A stretch of DNA of 64,000 nucleotides from positions 524,501 to 588,500 of the forward strand of contig NZ_CP101462.1 in NCBI RefSeq assembly GCF_024362205.1. Direction: 5' to 3'. Made by a program: the position numbers and the translations under genes. Source of the stretch: Exiguobacterium aurantiacum (GTDB taxonomy: Bacteria; Bacillota; Bacilli; Exiguobacteriales; Exiguobacteriaceae). A model generated the notes under the pieces. That model did no database searches and had not been told where the DNA came from. It saw only the letters and a program-made list of their open reading frames with translations. This document shows positions 31,185-46,283 of this stretch, piece after piece (positions within the stretch are counted from its first letter, which is position 1; the number at the start of each line of letters is the position of its first letter).

Positions 31185-31220
31185 AAAGAAGGCTGACCCA
31201 TTCTCGGGCCAGCCTTCTTT
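31185..31220. terminator. Bidirectional terminator
   Basis: AAAGAAGGCTG and CAGCCTTCTTT, extended by CCC/GGG, form a hairpin between the GNAT gene and the convergent manganese catalase gene. T residues follow. Confidence 0.8.
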
Positions 31221-32101
31221 CATTTCCGTTTAATTTGATCTGCGACTTTCTTGACGACTTTCTCGACACCACCCGCCGGGGCATCTAAGTCGTGATGGAG
31301 CGTCTTGTCCGGGATGTCCATGACCGGCTTCTGGCCTTGCGGGGCCGGGTCGCTCAAGTAGACGAAGTCGCCGGCACCATCCGGCGCGCTGCCGGTCGCC
31401 CATTTGCCTTGGCTCGACTCGTTGCCTTCCGACAAGTCCCAGAACTCGAGGCCGTGTTTCTCGGCTTCTTTCTCGTCCTTCGCCGGGAAGCTCGCCGGTA
31501 CGATGACGCCGTTCTTCTCTTCGAGCTCATCGATGGCCGCCATCCATTGGTATTGGTGGTAGCGGTCACGGGCAAGCATCTTGCGGAACACTTTCCGGAC
31601 GCCTTCGTCTTTCGTCATATGATAGAGACGTGCTACTTGGAGACGGCCTTGTGTCTCGGCGTGTAAGTTCGAGCGCATGTCGGCGAGCAAGTTCCCGCTC
31701 GCGACGATATACGACCCGTTCCACGGCACCCCGTTCGAGTTCGTCGGCAGTCCGCCGAGCCCGCTGACGATCAAGTGTTGCGGGTTCATCCCGCCGAGGA
31801 TGGCCGCCGTCGCCGGGTCTTTCGCCGCCTCGGCCTGGTCGTCCGGTGACGCCCCGTCGAGCAGTTGCGAGATGAGGGCGCACAACATCTCGACGTGCCC
31901 GATCTCCTCGGTCCCGATGTCCATGAGCATGTCCTTATACTTTTCTTCCCCGCGGCAGTTGAAGCCTTGGAATAAGTATTGCATCATGACGGTCATTTCC
32001 CCGAATTGACCGCCGAGCACCTCTTGGATTTGACGGGCGAGCTGTGGGTCGGGCCGATCGACGTTCACTTCGAACTGCAATTCCTTCTGATGACGAAACA
32101 T
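31220..32101 (-). CDS. Manganese catalase (KatN/CotJC family)
   Basis: The 293-residue protein carries the dimanganese ligands expected from family structures: Glu35 (GEMTVMMQYLFQG), Glu66 and His69 (GTEEIGHVEML), Glu149 (LHAETQG) and His182 (ARDRYHQYQ). It decomposes hydrogen peroxide in the cytoplasm. AAAGGAGGAG precedes the ATG at 32101; a longer reading from 32311 would run through the divergent promoter. A GTTTGA-N14-GGAACT element upstream resembles a SigB promoter. It is divergent from a DUF6075-like gene and opens a run of stress-type genes. Confidence 0.92.
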   Translation of the reverse strand: MFRHQKELQFEVNVDRPDPQLARQIQEVLGGQFGEMTVMMQYLFQGFNCRGEEKYKDMLMDIGTEEIGHVEMLCALISQLLDGASPDDQAEAAKDPATAAILGGMNPQHLIVSGLGGLPTNSNGVPWNGSYIVASGNLLADMRSNLHAETQGRLQVARLYHMTKDEGVRKVFRKMLARDRYHQYQWMAAIDELEEKNGVIVPASFPAKDEKEAEKHGLEFWDLSEGNESSQGKWATGSAPDGAGDFVYLSDPAPQGQKPVMDIPDKTLHHDLDAPAGGVEKVVKKVADQIKRK

Positions 32102-32149
32102 GGAACTCCTCCTTTTTTTGAACAACTGGTGAATGTACGACAAAGGTAT

Positions 32150-32175
32150 AGTTCCACTATCAATAGTTATCAAAC
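32150..32175 (-). promoter_or_regulatory. SigB-like promoter of the manganese catalase gene
   Basis: On the minus strand GTTTGA (32175-32170) is followed after 14 bp by GGAACT (32155-32150). The -35 part fits the SigB pattern well, the -10 part only partly. An overlapping SigA reading is possible. Confidence 0.4.
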
Positions 32176-32191
32176 CTGTTTTTTTGAAAAA

Positions 32192-32216
32192 GATTTCCAA
32201 ATACAGGTAGGGGTAT
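32192..32216 (+). promoter_or_regulatory. SigB-like promoter of the 32304 gene
   Basis: GATTTC (32192-32197), 13 bp, then GGGTAT (32211-32216), immediately repeated as GGGTAT at 32217-32222. The -10 element fits the SigB consensus fully, and the leader would be about 80 nt. Confidence 0.5.
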
Positions 32217-32303
32217 GGGTATCGACTGAGGATTACAATTCGCCAAAGTGTGGAATTAATATACACAGATTGATTTTCGTCCATACAGAGAGGAAAGACG
32301 GCT

Positions 32304-32699
32304 ATGAACAACCTTGAATTCTTGACGACCGAACACTACGATGTGTTCAAACAGTTGGCCCAGCGCCTCCATAATCCCGGCGACGTCAAGAAAGAGTATT
32401 TCTCCGCCCTTTATGTGATCGCCGGGAATGAGCGGGTGCGGAATCTATTGTTGCCGTATATGGACCTCGAGCAAGGCAAGATCAGTACGGCGACCATCAT
32501 CGACGACAACACGTTCGAGAAACAGGATATCATCCTCGTCAAACTCGTCATCCACCTCTACAATAATAAGGAATGGGTGCTCCCGACCGAATTGATCACG
32601 TTACCGGAGCCGGACTACCAGCTTGCCATGCAGGCCATCACGCTCTGTCGTGACCAACAGTTCGACGAAGTGGTCATCCCGAACGACCAAGAGACCTGA
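32304..32699 (+). CDS. DUF6075-like small protein
   Basis: The 131-residue product reads as a compact alpha/beta protein with EHYDVFKQLAQRL, FSALYVIAGNERVRNLL and VKLVIHLYNNKEW, phrases I associate with the DUF6075 family of Bacilli, which has no known function. No signal peptide or membrane segment. AGAGGAAAG precedes the ATG. It is divergent from manganese catalase and has its own terminator, so it is a single-gene unit inside the stress island. Confidence 0.65.
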   Translation: MNNLEFLTTEHYDVFKQLAQRLHNPGDVKKEYFSALYVIAGNERVRNLLLPYMDLEQGKISTATIIDDNTFEKQDIILVKLVIHLYNNKEWVLPTELITLPEPDYQLAMQAITLCRDQQFDEVVIPNDQET

Positions 32700-32718
32700 G
32701 CCAGGTCTCTTTTTTTTG
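32690..32718 (+). terminator. Terminator after the DUF6075-like gene
   Basis: AGAGACCTG pairs with CAGGTCTCT around a 3-nt loop, followed by T8. It overlaps the stop codon. Confidence 0.85.
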
Positions 32719-32743
32719 TTTCTCGTTCTCGAATGAAGGGTAA
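32718..32743 (+). promoter_or_regulatory. SigB-type promoter of the Rieske oxidoreductase gene
   Basis: GTTTCT (32718-32723), 14 bp, GGGTAA (32738-32743) fits the Bacillus SigB pattern GTTTNN-N12-15-GGGWAW completely. It begins right at the end of the preceding terminator. Confidence 0.7.
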
Positions 32744-32792
32744 TTCACCCATGCATTCGAAACCGTTGAATTTTCTCGGAGGAGGGACACGT

Positions 32793-34313
32793 ATGTTACA
32801 AGATTTTCCGAAATCGTATTGGCGTGACGTCGAAGTAAAGACGTTGAAACCGCTCAACGAAGACGTCAAAACAGAGGTTGTCGTGGTCGGGGCCGGCATC
32901 GTCGGTGTACTCGCCGCACTGCAGTTGGTCGAACAAGGCAAGCAGGTCGTCTTGGTCGAAGCGGCCCGTTTCGCGACAGGAACGACCGGTTACACGACGG
33001 CCAAAGTCTCGGCCCAGCACGGCGTCGTCTACACCGAACTCGTCAAATCGCTCGGTGAAGACAAGGCGCGACTATATTACGAGGCGAACATGGAGGCGCT
33101 CCGTTTCCTCGAGGAACAAGTCGACACGTTGGAGATCGACTGTGACCTCGAACGTCAGCACGCCTACATGTATTCACTCTCGTCCTCAGGTTCGGCGAAA
33201 CTGCTCGAGAAAGAAGAAGAGGCGTACCAAAAGCTCGGGATTGACGGCGGTGACGCCACGGACGAAGTGAACGGTCTGTTGCCGTACGAGGTCAAGAAGG
33301 CGACCGTCATGCGTGATCAGCTCCAGTTTCATCCGGTCAAATACTTACAAGGGCTGATGGACCGATTCCTCGAGCTCGGCGGGACGCTCTATGAGATGAC
33401 CCGGGTGACCGGCATCGAATATGGGACGCCGCACCGGCTCGACACGATCACCGGCCACACGATCGAGGCGCGCGACGTCGTCGTCGCGACCCATTTCCCG
33501 TTCAACGACTTCAAGGGCCTCTATTTCGCGAAGATGGAAGTCGAGCGCTCGTACGTCGTCTCGGCCGAGGTCGACACGTTCCCGGAAGGCATGTTCATCA
33601 GCGTCGACAAGCCGAGCCGTTCGCTCCGGCACGTCAAACTCGACAACGGCAAGAAGATGGCCATGTTCGGGGGCGAGAACCATTTGGCGGGCCATAAGGA
33701 AGAGACGCAAGTCTGCTACGAGAAGCTTGGCGAGTTCGGGACGCGGCATTTCGGGGCCGAGACGTTCACCCACCATTGGTCGGCCCAAGACTTGATCACG
33801 CTCGACAAAGTACCGTACATCGGCCGGATGACGAACGACACGCCTCACGTCTTCGTCGCGACCGGCTTCTCGAAATGGGGGATGAGCCAAGGCATCGTCG
33901 CGGCCCGTCTCATCGCCGACTTGATCTTGAACCGACCGAACCGCTACGAGGACCTGTATGACCCGACGCGGTCGAAATGGAAATTTGCCGACGCGGCCCG
34001 GTTCATCAAGACGAATGCCGACGTGGCCAAAGAGCTCGTCAAAGGCAAACTGAAGCCGACGGACAAACAAGTGGACGAGCTCGGGCTCGATGAAGGCGCC
34101 ATCGTCAAACATAACGGTGAACATGTCGCCGCCTACCGCGATCCCGACGGCCACGTCTCGATGGTCGGGTCGGCCTGTACGCATATGGGCTGTACCGTCA
34201 ACTGGAACCAGGCCGAGCGGTCGTGGGACTGTCCATGCCACGGCTCGCGCTTCAAACCGAACGGAGAAGTCATCGAAGGGCCGGCCGTGAAATCACTTCC
34301 GCCCAAATCATGA
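32793..34313 (+). CDS. FAD-dependent oxidoreductase with C-terminal Rieske [2Fe-2S] domain (YhfW-like)
   Basis: The 506-residue protein has an N-terminal DAO/FAD-binding fold (EVVVVGAGIVGVLAALQLVE, about residue 30) and a C-terminal Rieske domain whose cluster ligands are Cys462, His464 (CTHMGC) and Cys480, His483 (CPCHGS). This layout equals Bacillus YhfW. It probably couples oxidation of an amine or hydroxy compound to an electron acceptor; the substrate is not known. GGAGGAGGG precedes the ATG at 32793; the longer frame from 32733 would start inside the SigB-type promoter leader. Confidence 0.88.
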   Translation: MLQDFPKSYWRDVEVKTLKPLNEDVKTEVVVVGAGIVGVLAALQLVEQGKQVVLVEAARFATGTTGYTTAKVSAQHGVVYTELVKSLGEDKARLYYEANMEALRFLEEQVDTLEIDCDLERQHAYMYSLSSSGSAKLLEKEEEAYQKLGIDGGDATDEVNGLLPYEVKKATVMRDQLQFHPVKYLQGLMDRFLELGGTLYEMTRVTGIEYGTPHRLDTITGHTIEARDVVVATHFPFNDFKGLYFAKMEVERSYVVSAEVDTFPEGMFISVDKPSRSLRHVKLDNGKKMAMFGGENHLAGHKEETQVCYEKLGEFGTRHFGAETFTHHWSAQDLITLDKVPYIGRMTNDTPHVFVATGFSKWGMSQGIVAARLIADLILNRPNRYEDLYDPTRSKWKFADAARFIKTNADVAKELVKGKLKPTDKQVDELGLDEGAIVKHNGEHVAAYRDPDGHVSMVGSACTHMGCTVNWNQAERSWDCPCHGSRFKPNGEVIEGPAVKSLPPKS

Positions 34314-34457
34314 CATCAGATTGTAAATGTTTCTAGAAAATCATGCTTTTAAGTCAAGAGCGAAGCCGACTCGACGTTTGGCGTTGGAGCGCCCCTTTTT
34401 TGATACTGATGGTTCGACTCTCATTATGTTCCTCCGATAACAATCGGGAAACTTTTC

Positions 34458-34483
34458 GTTTGAACGGGAGTAGGAACGGAAAC
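34458..34483 (+). promoter_or_regulatory. Possible SigB-like promoter of the YndM-like operon
   Basis: GTTTGA (34458-34463), 14 bp, then GGAAAC (34478-34483). The -35 matches; the -10 matches in four of six positions. The spacing equals that of the neighbouring SigB-like promoters. Confidence 0.35.
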
Positions 34484-34529
34484 GAAGGTCATGTATGAAC
34501 GCCATCACAAGGGAAAGGGGGAAACGTCG

Positions 34530-34916
34530 ATGCAAGTGAATCATGGAAAGGCACTCAGTCTAAAACTAGGGGCGTTGCTCGTCGTCTTCATCGCGATTTT
34601 GACGCTCGGGTTTGATGTCCCATGGTACCACGCCGCCTGGATCTCGATTGCGGTCGGACTGATCGCCTATGGGGTGGGCGACATGTTCGTCTTACGCAAG
34701 TTCGGCAATCTGATCGCGACAGCGGCCGATTTCGGCCTCGTCTTCTTCTTGACGTGGTTCTTCCTGTGGATCTTGGACTTCGATATCGGGACCGAGACGA
34801 GCTTTGTGTTGCTCGCGCTGTACACGGCCCTGGCGACCGCGGTCGTCGAGTTCTTGTTCCACGGTTGGCTGCTCAAACATAAACGAGAAGAGGCGCACAT
34901 TCATTCGACACGATAA
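34530..34916 (+). CDS. YndM-family (DUF2512) membrane protein
   Basis: The 128-residue protein has four hydrophobic segments (about residues 10-28, 35-53, 62-85 and 90-115) and ends in a charged, His-containing tail. The pattern ALSLKLGALLVVFIAILTL, WISIAVGLIAYGVGD and FVLRKFGNLIATAAD fits DUF2512/YndM. Function unknown. A GGGGGA ribosome site precedes the ATG at 34530. Two short coat-protein-like genes follow within 20 nt each, so the three form an operon. Confidence 0.8.
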   Translation: MQVNHGKALSLKLGALLVVFIAILTLGFDVPWYHAAWISIAVGLIAYGVGDMFVLRKFGNLIATAADFGLVFFLTWFFLWILDFDIGTETSFVLLALYTALATAVVEFLFHGWLLKHKREEAHIHSTR

Positions 34917-34933
34917 AAAAGGAGGAAGCGAAC

Positions 34934-35134
34934 ATGGCTAAAAACAAACTCGCCATTCATGAAGTGTTAGAGATTCACGAGATGCTGACGCTGAAACAAG
35001 CGGGGCTCGTCAAAGGGTATGTGAGCGAACCGCTCATCAAGGACGAGAAGCTACAGAAGATCGCCCGCAAACATTTGAAGAACACCGAGCAAGCGATCAG
35101 TGAACTGAAACAACTGTTGCCGAACAAGGCATAA
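34934..35134 (+). CDS. CotF/YraG-like small helical protein
   Basis: The 66-residue, all-helical protein (LAIHEVLEIHEMLTLKQAGL.. KIARKHLKNTEQAISELKQL) resembles Bacillus YraG and the first half of the CotF coat domain. AAAAAGGAGGA precedes the ATG. In Bacillus related genes form part of the spore coat. In an organism that may not sporulate the protein must have another role, perhaps a ferritin-like or stress-storage helical bundle (inference). Confidence 0.7.
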   Translation: MAKNKLAIHEVLEIHEMLTLKQAGLVKGYVSEPLIKDEKLQKIARKHLKNTEQAISELKQLLPNKA

Positions 35135-35147
35135 GGAGGAGACACGT

Positions 35148-35444
35148 ATGGGAATCCAAGAGAACTTGAAACGAGCCAGTAAACAACGCGACGAGTTGAT
35201 CGCGACCGATTTGCTCGTCACGGCGAAGTCGGCCGTCCGCGCCTATGCGGTGGCAGTGACCGAGACGGCGTCGCCCGAGGTCCGGAAAGTGCTCATCAAG
35301 CAATTGAACCAAGCGATCGAGGATCACGCCGAAATCGCCGACTATATGATTAAGAACGACATGTACATGGCGTACGATATCGAGAAGCAGTTGAAGCACG
35401 ACAAAGAGAAAGTCGACAAAGCGAACGAACTGATCAAGAAGTAA
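35148..35444 (+). CDS. Coat F domain protein (CotF-like)
   Basis: The 98-residue helical protein shows the Coat_F pattern: DELIATDLLVTAKSAVRAYA, a central helix with ETASPEVRKVLIKQLNQAIEDHAEIADYM, and a tail ending in KVDKANELIKK. The ATG follows AAGGAGGAG, 13 nt after the preceding stop. Coat_F proteins look like ferritin-type four-helix halves. The gene pair with manganese catalase nearby repeats an association also known from spore-coat operons, but here the promoters look stress-type. Confidence 0.75.
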   Translation: MGIQENLKRASKQRDELIATDLLVTAKSAVRAYAVAVTETASPEVRKVLIKQLNQAIEDHAEIADYMIKNDMYMAYDIEKQLKHDKEKVDKANELIKK

Positions 35445-35447
35445 GAG

Positions 35448-35469
35448 CCGACGGAAACGTCGGTTTTTT
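35448..35469 (+). terminator. Terminator after the CotF-like gene
   Basis: CCGACG pairs with CGTCGG around GAAA, followed by T7. A stable tetraloop hairpin. Confidence 0.88.
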
Positions 35470-35471
35470 TC

Positions 35472-35497
35472 GTTTTGGGATGTCTTGGCCGTGGTAT
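35472..35497 (+). promoter_or_regulatory. SigB-like promoter of the YerD-like gene
   Basis: GTTTTG (35472-35477), 14 bp, TGGTAT (35492-35497). The -10 differs from GGGTAT in one position. It starts directly behind the terminator. Confidence 0.55.
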
Positions 35498-35531
35498 CGG
35501 ATAAGGACTATACGTGAGGGAGGAACCACTC

Positions 35532-37124
35532 ATGTCCGTGAATACGACGATGCTCGCCATCGTGCTCGTCCTGATGGTATCGACGATTGCTGCCCCGTTC
35601 TTGTTCATCTTGTACCTCTGGCGGAAGGACCGCCATCAGCGCGAGCACTCCGTCCTCCGTAACTTTCCGATTCTCGGCAAGGTGCGCTACATCTTGGAGA
35701 AGGTCGGGCCCGAGATGCGTCAATATTTGTTCTTGAACGACAACGAGTCAAAACCGTTCTCGCGGAACGACTATGAGGCGGCCGTTATTTCCGGGAAATA
35801 TAAGTCACGCATCATCGGATTCGGCTCGGAGCGGGACTTCGAAGGGGGCGGCTTTTATCTCCAGAACGTGCTCTATCCGACGAACCGGGACGAGCTCCGC
35901 ATCGACAACCGGGACATTGTGTCGACGCGACTGTACCAAGTCGAGGAGGACAACCTGTTCACACGGAAAGAGCGGATCATCGAACGCGACGTCGGTCCGT
36001 ATTTGTTGACGGAAGAGGACAGCATCGTCATCGGGAGACAGACGTGCCGGGAGCCGTTCCGTGTCCGCGGTCTCGTCGGACAGTCGGCGATGAGTTTCGG
36101 TTCGCTCGGAGAGAACGCCATCACGGCGCTGTCGATCGGGCTTGGTCGCGCGAAGGGGACGTGGATGAACACCGGTGAAGGCGGCCTGTCGGACCATCAC
36201 TTGAAGGGCGGTGTCGACCTCATCTGTCAAGTCGGACCGGCGCTGTTCGGCGTCCGGACCGAGGACGGGGCATTCTCCGAAGCAGCGTTTAAAGCGAAGA
36301 GCGACATCCCCCAAGTGCGGGCGTTCGAGTTAAAGCTCGCCCAAGGCGCGAAGACGAGGGGCGGCCATATCGACGGCGCGAAAGTGACCGAAGAGATCGC
36401 CCGCATCCGGAACGTCAAAGTCGGCGTGACGATCGACAGCCCGAACCGCTTCTCCGAGTTCAAGACGGACCGGGAACTGCTCGACATCATTGAGCGGCTG
36501 CGCGATATCGGTGGCAAGCCCGTCGGTATCAAACTTGTCGTCGGCCGGCTCTCAGACGTCGAGGCGCTCGTTTTGGAGATGGCGTCATCAGGGAAACATC
36601 CTGACTTCATCACGGTCGACGGCGGGGAAGGCGGGACCGGGGCGACGTATCAAGAGCTCGCCGATACGGTCGGATTGCCGTTGAAGGCCGCGCTCCCGTA
36701 CGTGCATCGCTTGCTTCTCGAACACGGACTCCGTGACCGCATCACTTTGTTCGCTTCCGGTAAGCTCGTCACGGCAGACAAGATCGCCGTCGCGCTCGCG
36801 CTCGGTGCCGACTGCGTCAACATCGCCCGCGGTCTCATGTTCAACGTCGGTTGCATCCAGGCGCAAGTGTGCCACACGAACCGATGTCCGGTCGGTGTCG
36901 CGACGACCGACCCGAAACTGCAGCACGCCCTCGTCGTCGATGAGAAGAGTTTCCGCGTGACGAACTATATCATCTCGCTCCGGGAAGGGCTCTACAACAT
37001 GACGGCCGCGGCCGGTCTCGACACGCCGACGAAACTATCGCTCGAACATGTCGCCTATAAGTACCCGGACGGCCGAGTGAAGCGGGGCGAGGAGCTGTTC
37101 GACGGACAAGCGAAAGACGGGTGA
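35532..37124 (+). CDS. FMN-binding glutamate synthase-like protein (YerD-like)
   Basis: This 530-residue protein has an N-terminal membrane segment (residues 3-27) and a glutamate-synthase central/FMN barrel domain: GLVGQSAMSFGSLGENAI, NTGEGGLSDHH, DGGEGGTGATYQELADT, and the cluster region CIQAQVCHTNRCPVGVATTDP with three cysteines. It lacks the amidotransferase domain of true GltB. The layout equals Bacillus YerD, whose role is unresolved. GGGAGGA supports the ATG at 35532. A SigB-like promoter and a terminator at the stop codon make it a single unit at the end of the stress island. Confidence 0.87.
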   Translation: MSVNTTMLAIVLVLMVSTIAAPFLFILYLWRKDRHQREHSVLRNFPILGKVRYILEKVGPEMRQYLFLNDNESKPFSRNDYEAAVISGKYKSRIIGFGSERDFEGGGFYLQNVLYPTNRDELRIDNRDIVSTRLYQVEEDNLFTRKERIIERDVGPYLLTEEDSIVIGRQTCREPFRVRGLVGQSAMSFGSLGENAITALSIGLGRAKGTWMNTGEGGLSDHHLKGGVDLICQVGPALFGVRTEDGAFSEAAFKAKSDIPQVRAFELKLAQGAKTRGGHIDGAKVTEEIARIRNVKVGVTIDSPNRFSEFKTDRELLDIIERLRDIGGKPVGIKLVVGRLSDVEALVLEMASSGKHPDFITVDGGEGGTGATYQELADTVGLPLKAALPYVHRLLLEHGLRDRITLFASGKLVTADKIAVALALGADCVNIARGLMFNVGCIQAQVCHTNRCPVGVATTDPKLQHALVVDEKSFRVTNYIISLREGLYNMTAAAGLDTPTKLSLEHVAYKYPDGRVKRGEELFDGQAKDG

Positions 37125-41121: not shown

Positions 41122-41736
41122 ATGAAAGCCTTATTCTTGAACTGTTCGTTGAAGGGCGGGGATACGACCTCGCACACGGAAGGATTGATGAAGGATATCA
41201 TCCCGCACTTCGACAAGCTCGGAGTCGACTCGGAGATCGTCCGTGTCGTCGACTACAACGTCGCGTTCGGGGTGACCGAGGATGAAGGGGACGGTGATGC
41301 GTGGCCACAGATCTTCGAGAAAGTGAAGGCCGCCGACATCCTCATCATCGGGACGCCGCTTTGGCTCGGCGAGAAGAGCAGCGTCGCCACGCAAGTCATC
41401 GAGCGGCTGTACGGGGGCAGCGCCTTGACGAACGATAAAGGTCAGGCCATCTACTACAACAAGGTCGGCGGTGTCGTCGTGACGGGAAATGAGGACGGGG
41501 CGAAGCACGCCTGTGCGTCAATCTTGTATGGTCTGTCGCATATCGGTTTCACCGTCCCGCCGAACGTCGATGCGTATTGGGTCGGCGAGGCCGGACCGGG
41601 TGACTCGTATCTCGATGCTGGGCGCGACAACGCCTTCACGAAAAAGAACGGCCGCGTCATGGCGTATAACTTATACCATTTCGCGAACATGTTGAAGCAG
41701 ACCCCAATCCCGGCGGAAGGCAACGTGATGGAGTGA
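41122..41736 (+). CDS. Flavodoxin-fold NAD(P)H-dependent FMN reductase-like protein
   Basis: The 204-residue protein has a flavodoxin-like fold. The phosphate loop is LNCSLKGGDTTSHTEGL (residues 6-22), followed by ADILIIGTPLWLGEKSSV (about 70-87), which positions the isoalloxazine, and GGVVVTGNEDGAKH (about 115-128). It belongs with NADPH-dependent FMN reductases of the NAD(P)H oxidoreductase type; the electron acceptor is unknown. AAGGAGGGA precedes the ATG. It stands alone between terminators. Confidence 0.82.
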   Translation: MKALFLNCSLKGGDTTSHTEGLMKDIIPHFDKLGVDSEIVRVVDYNVAFGVTEDEGDGDAWPQIFEKVKAADILIIGTPLWLGEKSSVATQVIERLYGGSALTNDKGQAIYYNKVGGVVVTGNEDGAKHACASILYGLSHIGFTVPPNVDAYWVGEAGPGDSYLDAGRDNAFTKKNGRVMAYNLYHFANMLKQTPIPAEGNVME

Positions 41737-45401: not shown

Positions 45402-46283
45402 TCATTTCTTCTCCACCGCATGGCCGCCGAACTCGTTCCGCAGGGCGGCGACAACTTTTCCGGAGAACGTGTCCTCTTCGAGCGAACGTTGCCGCATCAT
45501 GAGCGACATGGCGATGACGGGTGCCGGCACGCCGTACTCGAGCGCCGTCTCGACCGTCCATTTGCCTTCGCCCGAGGCATGCATAATCCCTTTAATATCA
45601 TCGAGCTTTGCATCCTTATGGAACGCGCTCTCGGTTAGCTCCATCAGCCACGAGCGGACGACCGAGCCGTGGTTCCAGACGCGGGCGACTTGCTCGTGGT
45701 CGTACTCGAACGGACTCTTCTCGAGAATCTCGAACCCTTCGGCGATCGCCTGCATCATGCCGTATTCGATGCCGTTATGAATCATCTTCAAGAAGTGGCC
45801 ACTGCCACTCGGCCCGGCATACAAATAGCCGTTGTCCGTCGACACGTCGCGGAACAACTCCTCGATTTTACCGAACGCCTCCAAATCCCCGCCGATCATC
45901 GTACAGGCGCCATGCCGCGCCCCTTCCATACCGCCACTCGTCCCGACATCAAAGAAGTAGATGAGCTTGTCTTTGAAGTGCTCGGCCCGCCGCATCGATT
46001 CTTTATAGTTCGAGTTGCCGCCGTCGATGACGATATCCCCTGGTGACAACAATGCGTGCAAGTCGTTCAGGACGTGCTCGGTCACTTCGCCCGCCGGCAC
46101 CATCACCCAGATGACGCGTGGTGCCTTCAGCCCCTCGACGACTTCTTCAAGCGACTGTTTCGTCTCGAACTGGCTCGTCGACACGTTGCCCGGGTCGTAG
46201 CCGAGCACATGGTGCCCACCGTCCGTCAAATTGAGCGCCAAGTTCAACCCCATCTTCCCAAGTCCGATCATCCCTAATTCCAT
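45402..46283 (-). CDS. 6-phosphogluconate dehydrogenase, decarboxylating, short form (second copy)
   Basis: The 293-residue protein parallels the gluconate-operon copy at 28810 through its whole length: GMIGLGKMGLNLALNLTDGG, VIDGGNSNYKESMRRAEHF, FFDVGTSGGMEGARHG, SGHFLKMIHNGIEYGMMQAI. The motifs for NAD(P) and 6-phosphogluconate are intact, so both copies should be active. This one has its own GGGGTGA ribosome site and no gluconate genes nearby, so it may be the housekeeping pentose-phosphate enzyme, or have a different cofactor preference, while the other is inducible (inference). Confidence 0.9.
   Translation of the reverse strand: MELGMIGLGKMGLNLALNLTDGGHHVLGYDPGNVSTSQFETKQSLEEVVEGLKAPRVIWVMVPAGEVTEHVLNDLHALLSPGDIVIDGGNSNYKESMRRAEHFKDKLIYFFDVGTSGGMEGARHGACTMIGGDLEAFGKIEELFRDVSTDNGYLYAGPSGSGHFLKMIHNGIEYGMMQAIAEGFEILEKSPFEYDHEQVARVWNHGSVVRSWLMELTESAFHKDAKLDDIKGIMHASGEGKWTVETALEYGVPAPVIAMSLMMRQRSLEEDTFSGKVVAALRNEFGGHAVEKK

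Follow-up and report, generated by a model that had tools for sequence, protein, structure and literature searches.

Exiguobacterium aurantiacum carries an island of five consecutive transcription units in a 64-kb window of contig NZ_CP101462.1 (the window being the whole stretch of 64,000 nucleotides that was analysed). The units encode a manganese catalase, a small DUF6075-like protein, a YhfW-like oxidoreductase with a Rieske domain, an operon for a YndM-like protein, a 66-residue helical-hairpin protein (p66) and a CotF-family protein, and a YerD-like protein (Table 1). Each unit is preceded by an element that resembles the promoters of SigB, the sigma factor of the general stress response. 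The elements are conserved in the genus while the spacers between their boxes diverge, they resemble SigB promoters proven in vitro, and the genome encodes a true SigB. From this sequence evidence it seems quite probable that the five units form an accessory cluster of the SigB general-stress regulon.

Genes and elements of the island

A preliminary description of the window had named the genes and five promoter-like strings. When checked in the sequence, all five strings are present at the positions given. The gene identities stand as well, with the reservation that the DUF6075 assignment is a sub-threshold match. The island proteins are presumably orthologues of YdbD, YhfW, YndM and YerD, the tests covering the protein families. 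The T-runs of two terminator-like hairpins flow into the -35 boxes that follow them, forming very compact joints of terminator and promoter before the Rieske gene and yerD.

Table 1. Genes, candidate promoters, terminator-like hairpins and previously named strings of the island
Feature	Position	Strand	Basis or remark
Manganese catalase gene	31220..32101	-	PF05067 335.7 bits; NF052557 404.3 bits (cut-off 350)
DUF6075-like small protein	32304..32699	+	PF19552 19.5 bits, under cut-off 23.8
YhfW-like FAD oxidoreductase, C-terminal Rieske domain	32793..34313	+	PF01266 148 bits, PF00355 43.8 bits
YndM-like DUF2512 protein	34530..34916	+	PF10710 84.4 bits
66-residue helical-hairpin protein (p66)	34934..35134	+	two-helix model, pLDDT 81
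CotF-family protein	35148..35444	+	PF07875 Coat_F 77 bits
YerD-like glutamate-synthase-domain protein	35532..37124	+	PF01645 344.8 bits
Putative SigB-type promoter, catalase: GGTTTG-N14-TGGAAC	32151..32176	-	conserved in orthologues
Element named in preliminary description: GGGGTATGGGTAT	32192..32222	+	partly conserved
Putative SigB-type promoter, DUF6075-like gene: (GG)ATTA-N15-TGGAAT	32232..32256	+	conserved in genus
Putative SigB-type promoter, Rieske gene: TGTTTC-N15-GGGTAA	32717..32743	+	conserved in orthologues
Putative SigB-type promoter, yndM operon: CGTTTG-N14-CGGAAA	34457..34482	+	conserved in orthologues
Putative SigB-type promoter, yerD-like gene: CGTTTT-N15-TGGTAT	35471..35497	+	conserved in four genomes
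Terminator-like hairpin, T-run into Rieske -35 GTTT	32689..32711 (joint 32689-32722)	+	terminator consensus scan
Terminator-like hairpin, T-run into yerD -35 GTTT	35443..35468 (joint 35443-35476)	+	terminator consensus scan
String GTTTCT-N14-GGGTAA	32718	+	named earlier, before Rieske gene
String GTTTTG-N14-TGGTAT	35472	+	named earlier, before yerD-like gene
String GATTTC-N13-GGGTAT	32192	+	named earlier, before DUF6075-like gene
String GTTTGA-N14-GGAACT	32175-32150	-	named earlier, before catalase gene
String GTTTGA-N14-GGAAAC	34458	+	named earlier, before yndM operon

The distribution of the genes was followed in 19 Exiguobacterium genomes (G000 and other G-codes below). The DUF6075-like gene is a core gene of the genus (19/19), and no match at E <= 1e-6 was found in any of 19 sister-genus genomes. 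Its protein is predicted to be helical (model pLDDT 79), and a fold search returned no PDB match with E <= 0.001; a Pfam search with p66 likewise returned no match. The manganese catalase is present in six of the 19 genomes, the island Rieske gene and yndM in eight each (yndM being split in two pieces in G004), and yerD in twelve, in two pieces in G014 (L126/L129) and G017 (L127/L128). Seven genomes lack a yerD match at E <= 1e-60, and G018 (L071) has a short remnant-like match for yerD and likewise for the catalase. Such pieces, missing matches and remnants make both genes look repeatedly lost within the genus. The eight island Rieske copies form a single clade (100/100) within an Exiguobacterium clade (98/97), in a tree that left out L206-L209, L211, L213, L176-L180 and L185-L188 and held two archaeal rows, L204 and L205. 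At 33 loci around Rieske relatives (L181-L213, some with short flanks), those of the sister genus and four Rieske paralogues of Exiguobacterium among them, no island neighbours were found at E <= 1e-3.

Conservation, chance and rank of the elements

The standard for comparison, independent of the island, was the rsbV promoter, a place at which SigB would be expected to control its own operon; it reads GTTT-N15-GGGAA in 21/21 copies of the genus genomes (three of the 21 rsbV/sigB copies are from G004, with 8% contamination). The pattern GTTT-N16-GGGTA precedes the Rieske gene in 8/8 orthologues. Before yndM, GTTT-N15-NGGAA is found in all eight orthologues, with zero invariant columns between the boxes, and all six catalase orthologues have GTTT-N15/16-TGGAAC around a spacer that mostly varies. 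RTTA-N15-TGGAA precedes the DUF6075-like gene in 19/19 genomes; it starts with G in 13 of them and with A in six, to which the window belongs. For yerD, GTTT-N16-TGGTAT is found in G000, G005 and G014 and also, at a different locus, in G006, that is, in 4/4 genomes in which yerD is not directly behind DUF6075. Against the consensus of a GTTT -35 box and a GGGWAW -10 box about 15-17 bases apart, the Rieske element is complete, the yndM, catalase and yerD elements deviate at one or two -10 positions, and the DUF6075 element deviates in both boxes (GGATTA, TGGAAT). The deviations partly match verified SigB promoters, since TGGAA as a -10 box and GGTTA as a -35 box occur in those of yjlB and nhaX according to Table 1 of PMC7824861, and the elements were taken to agree with the consensus.

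Conservation also corrects the preliminary description in two respects. The spacing is not one constant: the distance from GTTT to the NGGWA box is 15 for rsbV, yndM and DUF6075, 15-16 for the catalase and 16 for Rieske and yerD. The string at 32192 had been assigned to the DUF6075-like gene, but the conserved element is the one at 32232-32256 (19/19). At 32192 the sequence ATACARG..GGGGTAY is retained at several orthologous loci without a steady GTTT partner, the upstream half reading GATT, AATT or GATC. The retained block (32201-32216) is flanked by the divergently oriented putative promoters of the catalase and DUF6075, and it persists in G010, a genome without a catalase match. Around the Rieske -10 box lies an imperfect inverted repeat, CGAATG...GGGT...ACCC...CATTCG (32730-32759), and behind that box stands TTCAaCCATGCA; both are partly conserved and possibly represent an operator or a start-region signal.

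The preliminary description had also held that the repeated spacing was unlikely by chance. The window contains two exact GTTT-N14-17-GGGWAW sites vs 2.3 expected from shuffles; for GTTT-N16-GGGWAW, with two mismatches allowed at most, there are 170 sites vs 190 expected. Since these single-genome counts are about those of chance, the argument from spacing fails by itself and significance rests on conservation; window-wide motif counting was dropped as evidence. Genome-wide there is a modest excess, 79 sites vs 55 for the reversed pattern (41 vs 34 with an overly long spacing), and in 13 of 30 loci taken from the 79 a start codon with a sequence like a ribosome-binding site follows within 220 bases.

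A weight matrix was built without island sequence from two rsbV sites and eight B. subtilis promoters that SigB reads in vitro, all eight being marked as transcribed in Table 1 of PMC7824861, in which the "verified" column is empty for hpf. Rarity of scores was judged on both strands of a 200 kb sample from this genome. The Rieske site scores 16.0 and the rsbV site 16.5; at yerD, DUF6075, yndM and the catalase the scores lie between 8.2 and 10.0. Of the named sites, only the Rieske site stands out, being equalled or beaten by two sites in the sample; the counts for the others in their best register are 92 (yerD), 108 (32192) and 266 each (yndM and catalase). In the register of the preliminary description, yndM is matched or beaten by 1298 sample sites and the catalase by 1152.

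Ranking the upstream regions of the window genes with this matrix is an independent test of the island elements. Aligned regions were scored for 34 of the 37 genes, those whose upstreams were usable in three or more of six relatives; yerD is among the three genes excluded for too few orthologous upstreams, and p66 lies outside the ranking because the gene list started at 70 residues. The Rieske gene ranks first of the 34 (z 6.6), yndM second (z 4.8) and DUF6075 third (z 4.3), with 0/60 permuted matrices as good in each case. A rank test of the four scored island units against the other 30 genes gives p = 2.6e-4 when scores are used and p = 1.5e-3 when z is used.

Probable SigB control and its alternatives

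SigB has a match in 19/19 genus genomes at 98-100% identity, and that of the window genome scores 414.6 bits against TIGR02941 (cut-off 315). The SigB model also hit RpoD, a FliA/WhiG-type factor, SigH and an RpoD-like protein on a second contig, and in this search of the whole genome, which used no model of SigF or SigG, SigB alone clears the SigB and SigB/F/G cut-offs. SigB is the likely reader of the island promoters, because it alone passes these cut-offs and because E. sibiricum and strain At1b are listed without sigE, sigF, sigG and sigK in a table of PMC3533761. The genes sigB, rsbW and rsbV are named in an Exiguobacterium strain (PMC8706201), and rsbW expression is reported to be raised under salt in E. 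profundum PHM11 (PMC5890156). Exiguobacterium has been studied for tolerance of cold, salt and desiccation (PMC2615787, PMC5890156 and PMC8706201).

The joint SigB-type control proposed in the preliminary description gains support from conservation in the genus, from the single SigB/F/G-type factor found, and from the B. subtilis precedent for ydbD and yerD. SigB-RNA polymerase would read these elements and transcribe each of the five units from its own promoter, composed of GTTT (RTTA before DUF6075), 15-16 bases and NGGWA. The release of SigB from its anti-sigma factor RsbW, presumably under stress, would then raise all five units together. The products may protect the stressed or resting cell, the manganese catalase by removing peroxide and the DUF2512 and CotF-like proteins in envelope or other protective roles.

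Rearranged loci serve as natural tests of this control. In G012 the catalase adjoins the Rieske gene and both elements are retained; no plus-strand terminator was found before the Rieske element there. In 8 of the 12 yerD-bearing genomes yerD follows the DUF6075 match at a distance of 57-66 bases, and its own element is absent from 7/7 extracted genomes with this arrangement (the 13 yerD upstream rows represent 11 genomes, with G014 and G017 twice each and G009 not among them). In G006, yerD and its element sit upstream of DUF6075, and G011 retains a relic of the yerD element with no yerD match. Since yerD has its own element in four genomes and DUF6075 directly upstream in the other eight, it appears tied to a SigB-type promoter, either its own or, by read-through, that of DUF6075.

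Several points weigh against SigB control of the whole island. The element patterns were defined after the alignments had been viewed, so that the conservation counts describe and do not test. By matrix score, four of the five named sites do not stand out within one genome, and the DUF6075 -35 box of the window, GGATTA, is one step further from GTTT. The catalase ranks 8/34 (z 2.0, 1/60 permuted matrices as good), yerD is unscored, and non-island genes also rank well, the gene at 41122 with 0/60. Several units have conserved sequence beyond the -10 box as well, and further regulators may therefore be involved. At 4/4 sister-genus loci of the closest Rieske gene, GGGTAA is conserved with GTTT just 12 bases before it, and the SigB-type pattern is found at none of the four (the Rieske gene alone was examined there). 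A member of a regulon need not, however, be conserved outside its genus.

The rank of the catalase, the departure of its -10 box TGGAAC from GGGWAW, and the four genomes on which the unscored yerD element rests would all suit an alternative in which SigB drives only the Rieske, yndM and DUF6075 units, and SigA or another factor reads the catalase and yerD elements, their likeness being partly coincidence. A SigA-like TTGATA-N17-TATACC, recognised by eye and not in the promoter scan list, indeed overlaps the catalase element. TATACC occurs in just two of six catalase rows, however, the others reading TATAAC, TATTAT, TACTTA and CAAGTT, whereas GTTT and TGGAAC persist at a near-constant distance in all six, the rearranged G012 included, while most of the spacer changes. 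This division of the island is considered unlikely.

It is also conceivable that the matches are chance or by-products, with GTTT arising from terminator T-runs and G-rich -10 boxes from ribosome-binding sites. Single-genome counts equal to chance and the T-runs abutting the -35 boxes of Rieske and yerD fit this explanation; the terminator consensus scan found 11 in the window vs 8.1 in shuffles. In G006 a 12-pair hairpin, which has no T-run and was not called a terminator, abuts the yerD GTTT, so that this genome cannot free the yerD -35 box from a hairpin context. The Rieske element of G012 nevertheless persists without such a terminator, and the catalase, DUF6075, yndM and rsbV elements have no such T-run in the terminator lists of the window and L006. 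The -10 boxes, moreover, lie 32-62 bases upstream of the start codons, and the boxes are invariant around changing spacers. An origin by chance or as by-products is hardly credible on this evidence. In place of a sigma factor, a DNA-binding regulator might link the units through conserved blocks, for which the GAATG...CATTC repeat around the Rieske -10 box and the GGGGTAT block at 32210 are candidates, and conservation does extend beyond the -10 box at Rieske and yerD and around 32201-32216. These extra blocks vary by unit, however, and the two-box layout that matches the rsbV promoter is alone common to all, making such a regulator very unlikely as the link.

Some genes outside the island have SigB-like upstream sequences. 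A 6-phosphogluconate-dehydrogenase-like gene (45402-46283, minus strand; 1/60 permuted matrices as good) has a conserved CTTTTG-N15-GGGTAA 40 bases before its start (z 3.1), possibly a further SigB promoter, and an FMN-reductase-like gene (41122-41736) has a conserved GGTTGA-N14-GGGAAC 30 bases before its start (z 3.3). Also high-scoring are 49758 (2/60) and 27384 (1/60), the site of the latter lying 5 bases from the start, within the ribosome-binding region.

Spore genes and known regulons

Some families of the island are those of spore genes. According to PMC7317962, PMC3416734 and PMC3097244, yhfW is under SigF control in B. subtilis, and the first of these reports YhfW as a spore coat protein; the cotF family is given as cotF, yhcQ, yraD, yraF and yusN in PMC3533761. 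Relatives of CotF are proteins of the spore, and together with the SigF control of yhfW this opens the possibility that spore-type genes came under SigB in a genus that forms no spores. A sporeless lineage lacking SigF and SigG may have kept forespore or spore-coat genes (YhfW, CotF-type, perhaps YndM), exchanging a GTATA-type -35 box for a GTTT-type one, so that SigB would now run a spore-protection remnant as a vegetative stress module beside the manganese catalase and YerD. This sigma-factor switch is put forward tentatively, as somewhat less than an even chance.

The SigF-like pattern is GYATR-N14-16-GGNNA. Among yhfW-type genes outside Exiguobacterium (17 from Bacillales, one from Carnobacteriaceae), 9/18 have a SigF-like and 3/18 a SigB-like element, vs means of 0.2 each and a maximum of two in shuffles of two-base blocks, a weak control. 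The eight island copies have none of the SigF-like and eight of the SigB-like kind, which, together with their single clade, fits a change of sigma factor through the -35 box. The count used 22 of 38 Rieske-relative loci plus the genus rows, with L204-L206, L208, L209, L211 and L213 (non-Bacillales, unplaced or fragments) and L176-L180 and L185-L188 (apparent repeats of genus loci) omitted. A second YhfW-like gene (G000:C1:1466953-1468434, L087) occurs in 14/19 genus genomes, including all 11 without the island. This paralogue has a SigB-type element in 0/14 and a SigF-like one in 6/14 (all close relatives; GTATG-N14-GGGGTA or similar), although SigF was not found, and this weighs against a switch. 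So do the sister-genus loci, which match neither pattern (0/4), and the scope of the comparison, which covers YhfW only.

No account of this cluster or of a SigB promoter set in Exiguobacterium was found in the published material, available in part. The present analysis gives the DUF6075-like, DUF2512, CotF-like and YhfW-like proteins a regulatory context in the general stress response. If the switch is real, the island would illustrate how a lineage that does not sporulate may put genes of the spore type to new use, mostly through an exchange of the -35 box from that of one sigma factor to that of its paralogue. The island would be a further case of a known regulon type, and its evolutionary side is moderately interesting.

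The SigF regulon of spore formers, with yhfW and the CotF-family spore proteins, shares protein families with the island; it differs in that E. sibiricum and strain At1b are listed without sigF and sigG and in that the elements of the island copies are of the SigB type. With the SigB regulon of B. subtilis the island shares two-box promoters with the same boxes at similar distances, and a SigB-type promoter likewise precedes an rsbV-rsbW-sigB operon in this genome. Both ydbD and yerD are listed as SigB genes in PMC7824861, and YerD is also among the B. subtilis SigB genes in PMC7522486; yhfW and yndM do not appear in the text of PMC7824861. The difference from the B. subtilis regulon is that in E. 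aurantiacum such genes stand side by side with YhfW-, YndM- and CotF-type genes.

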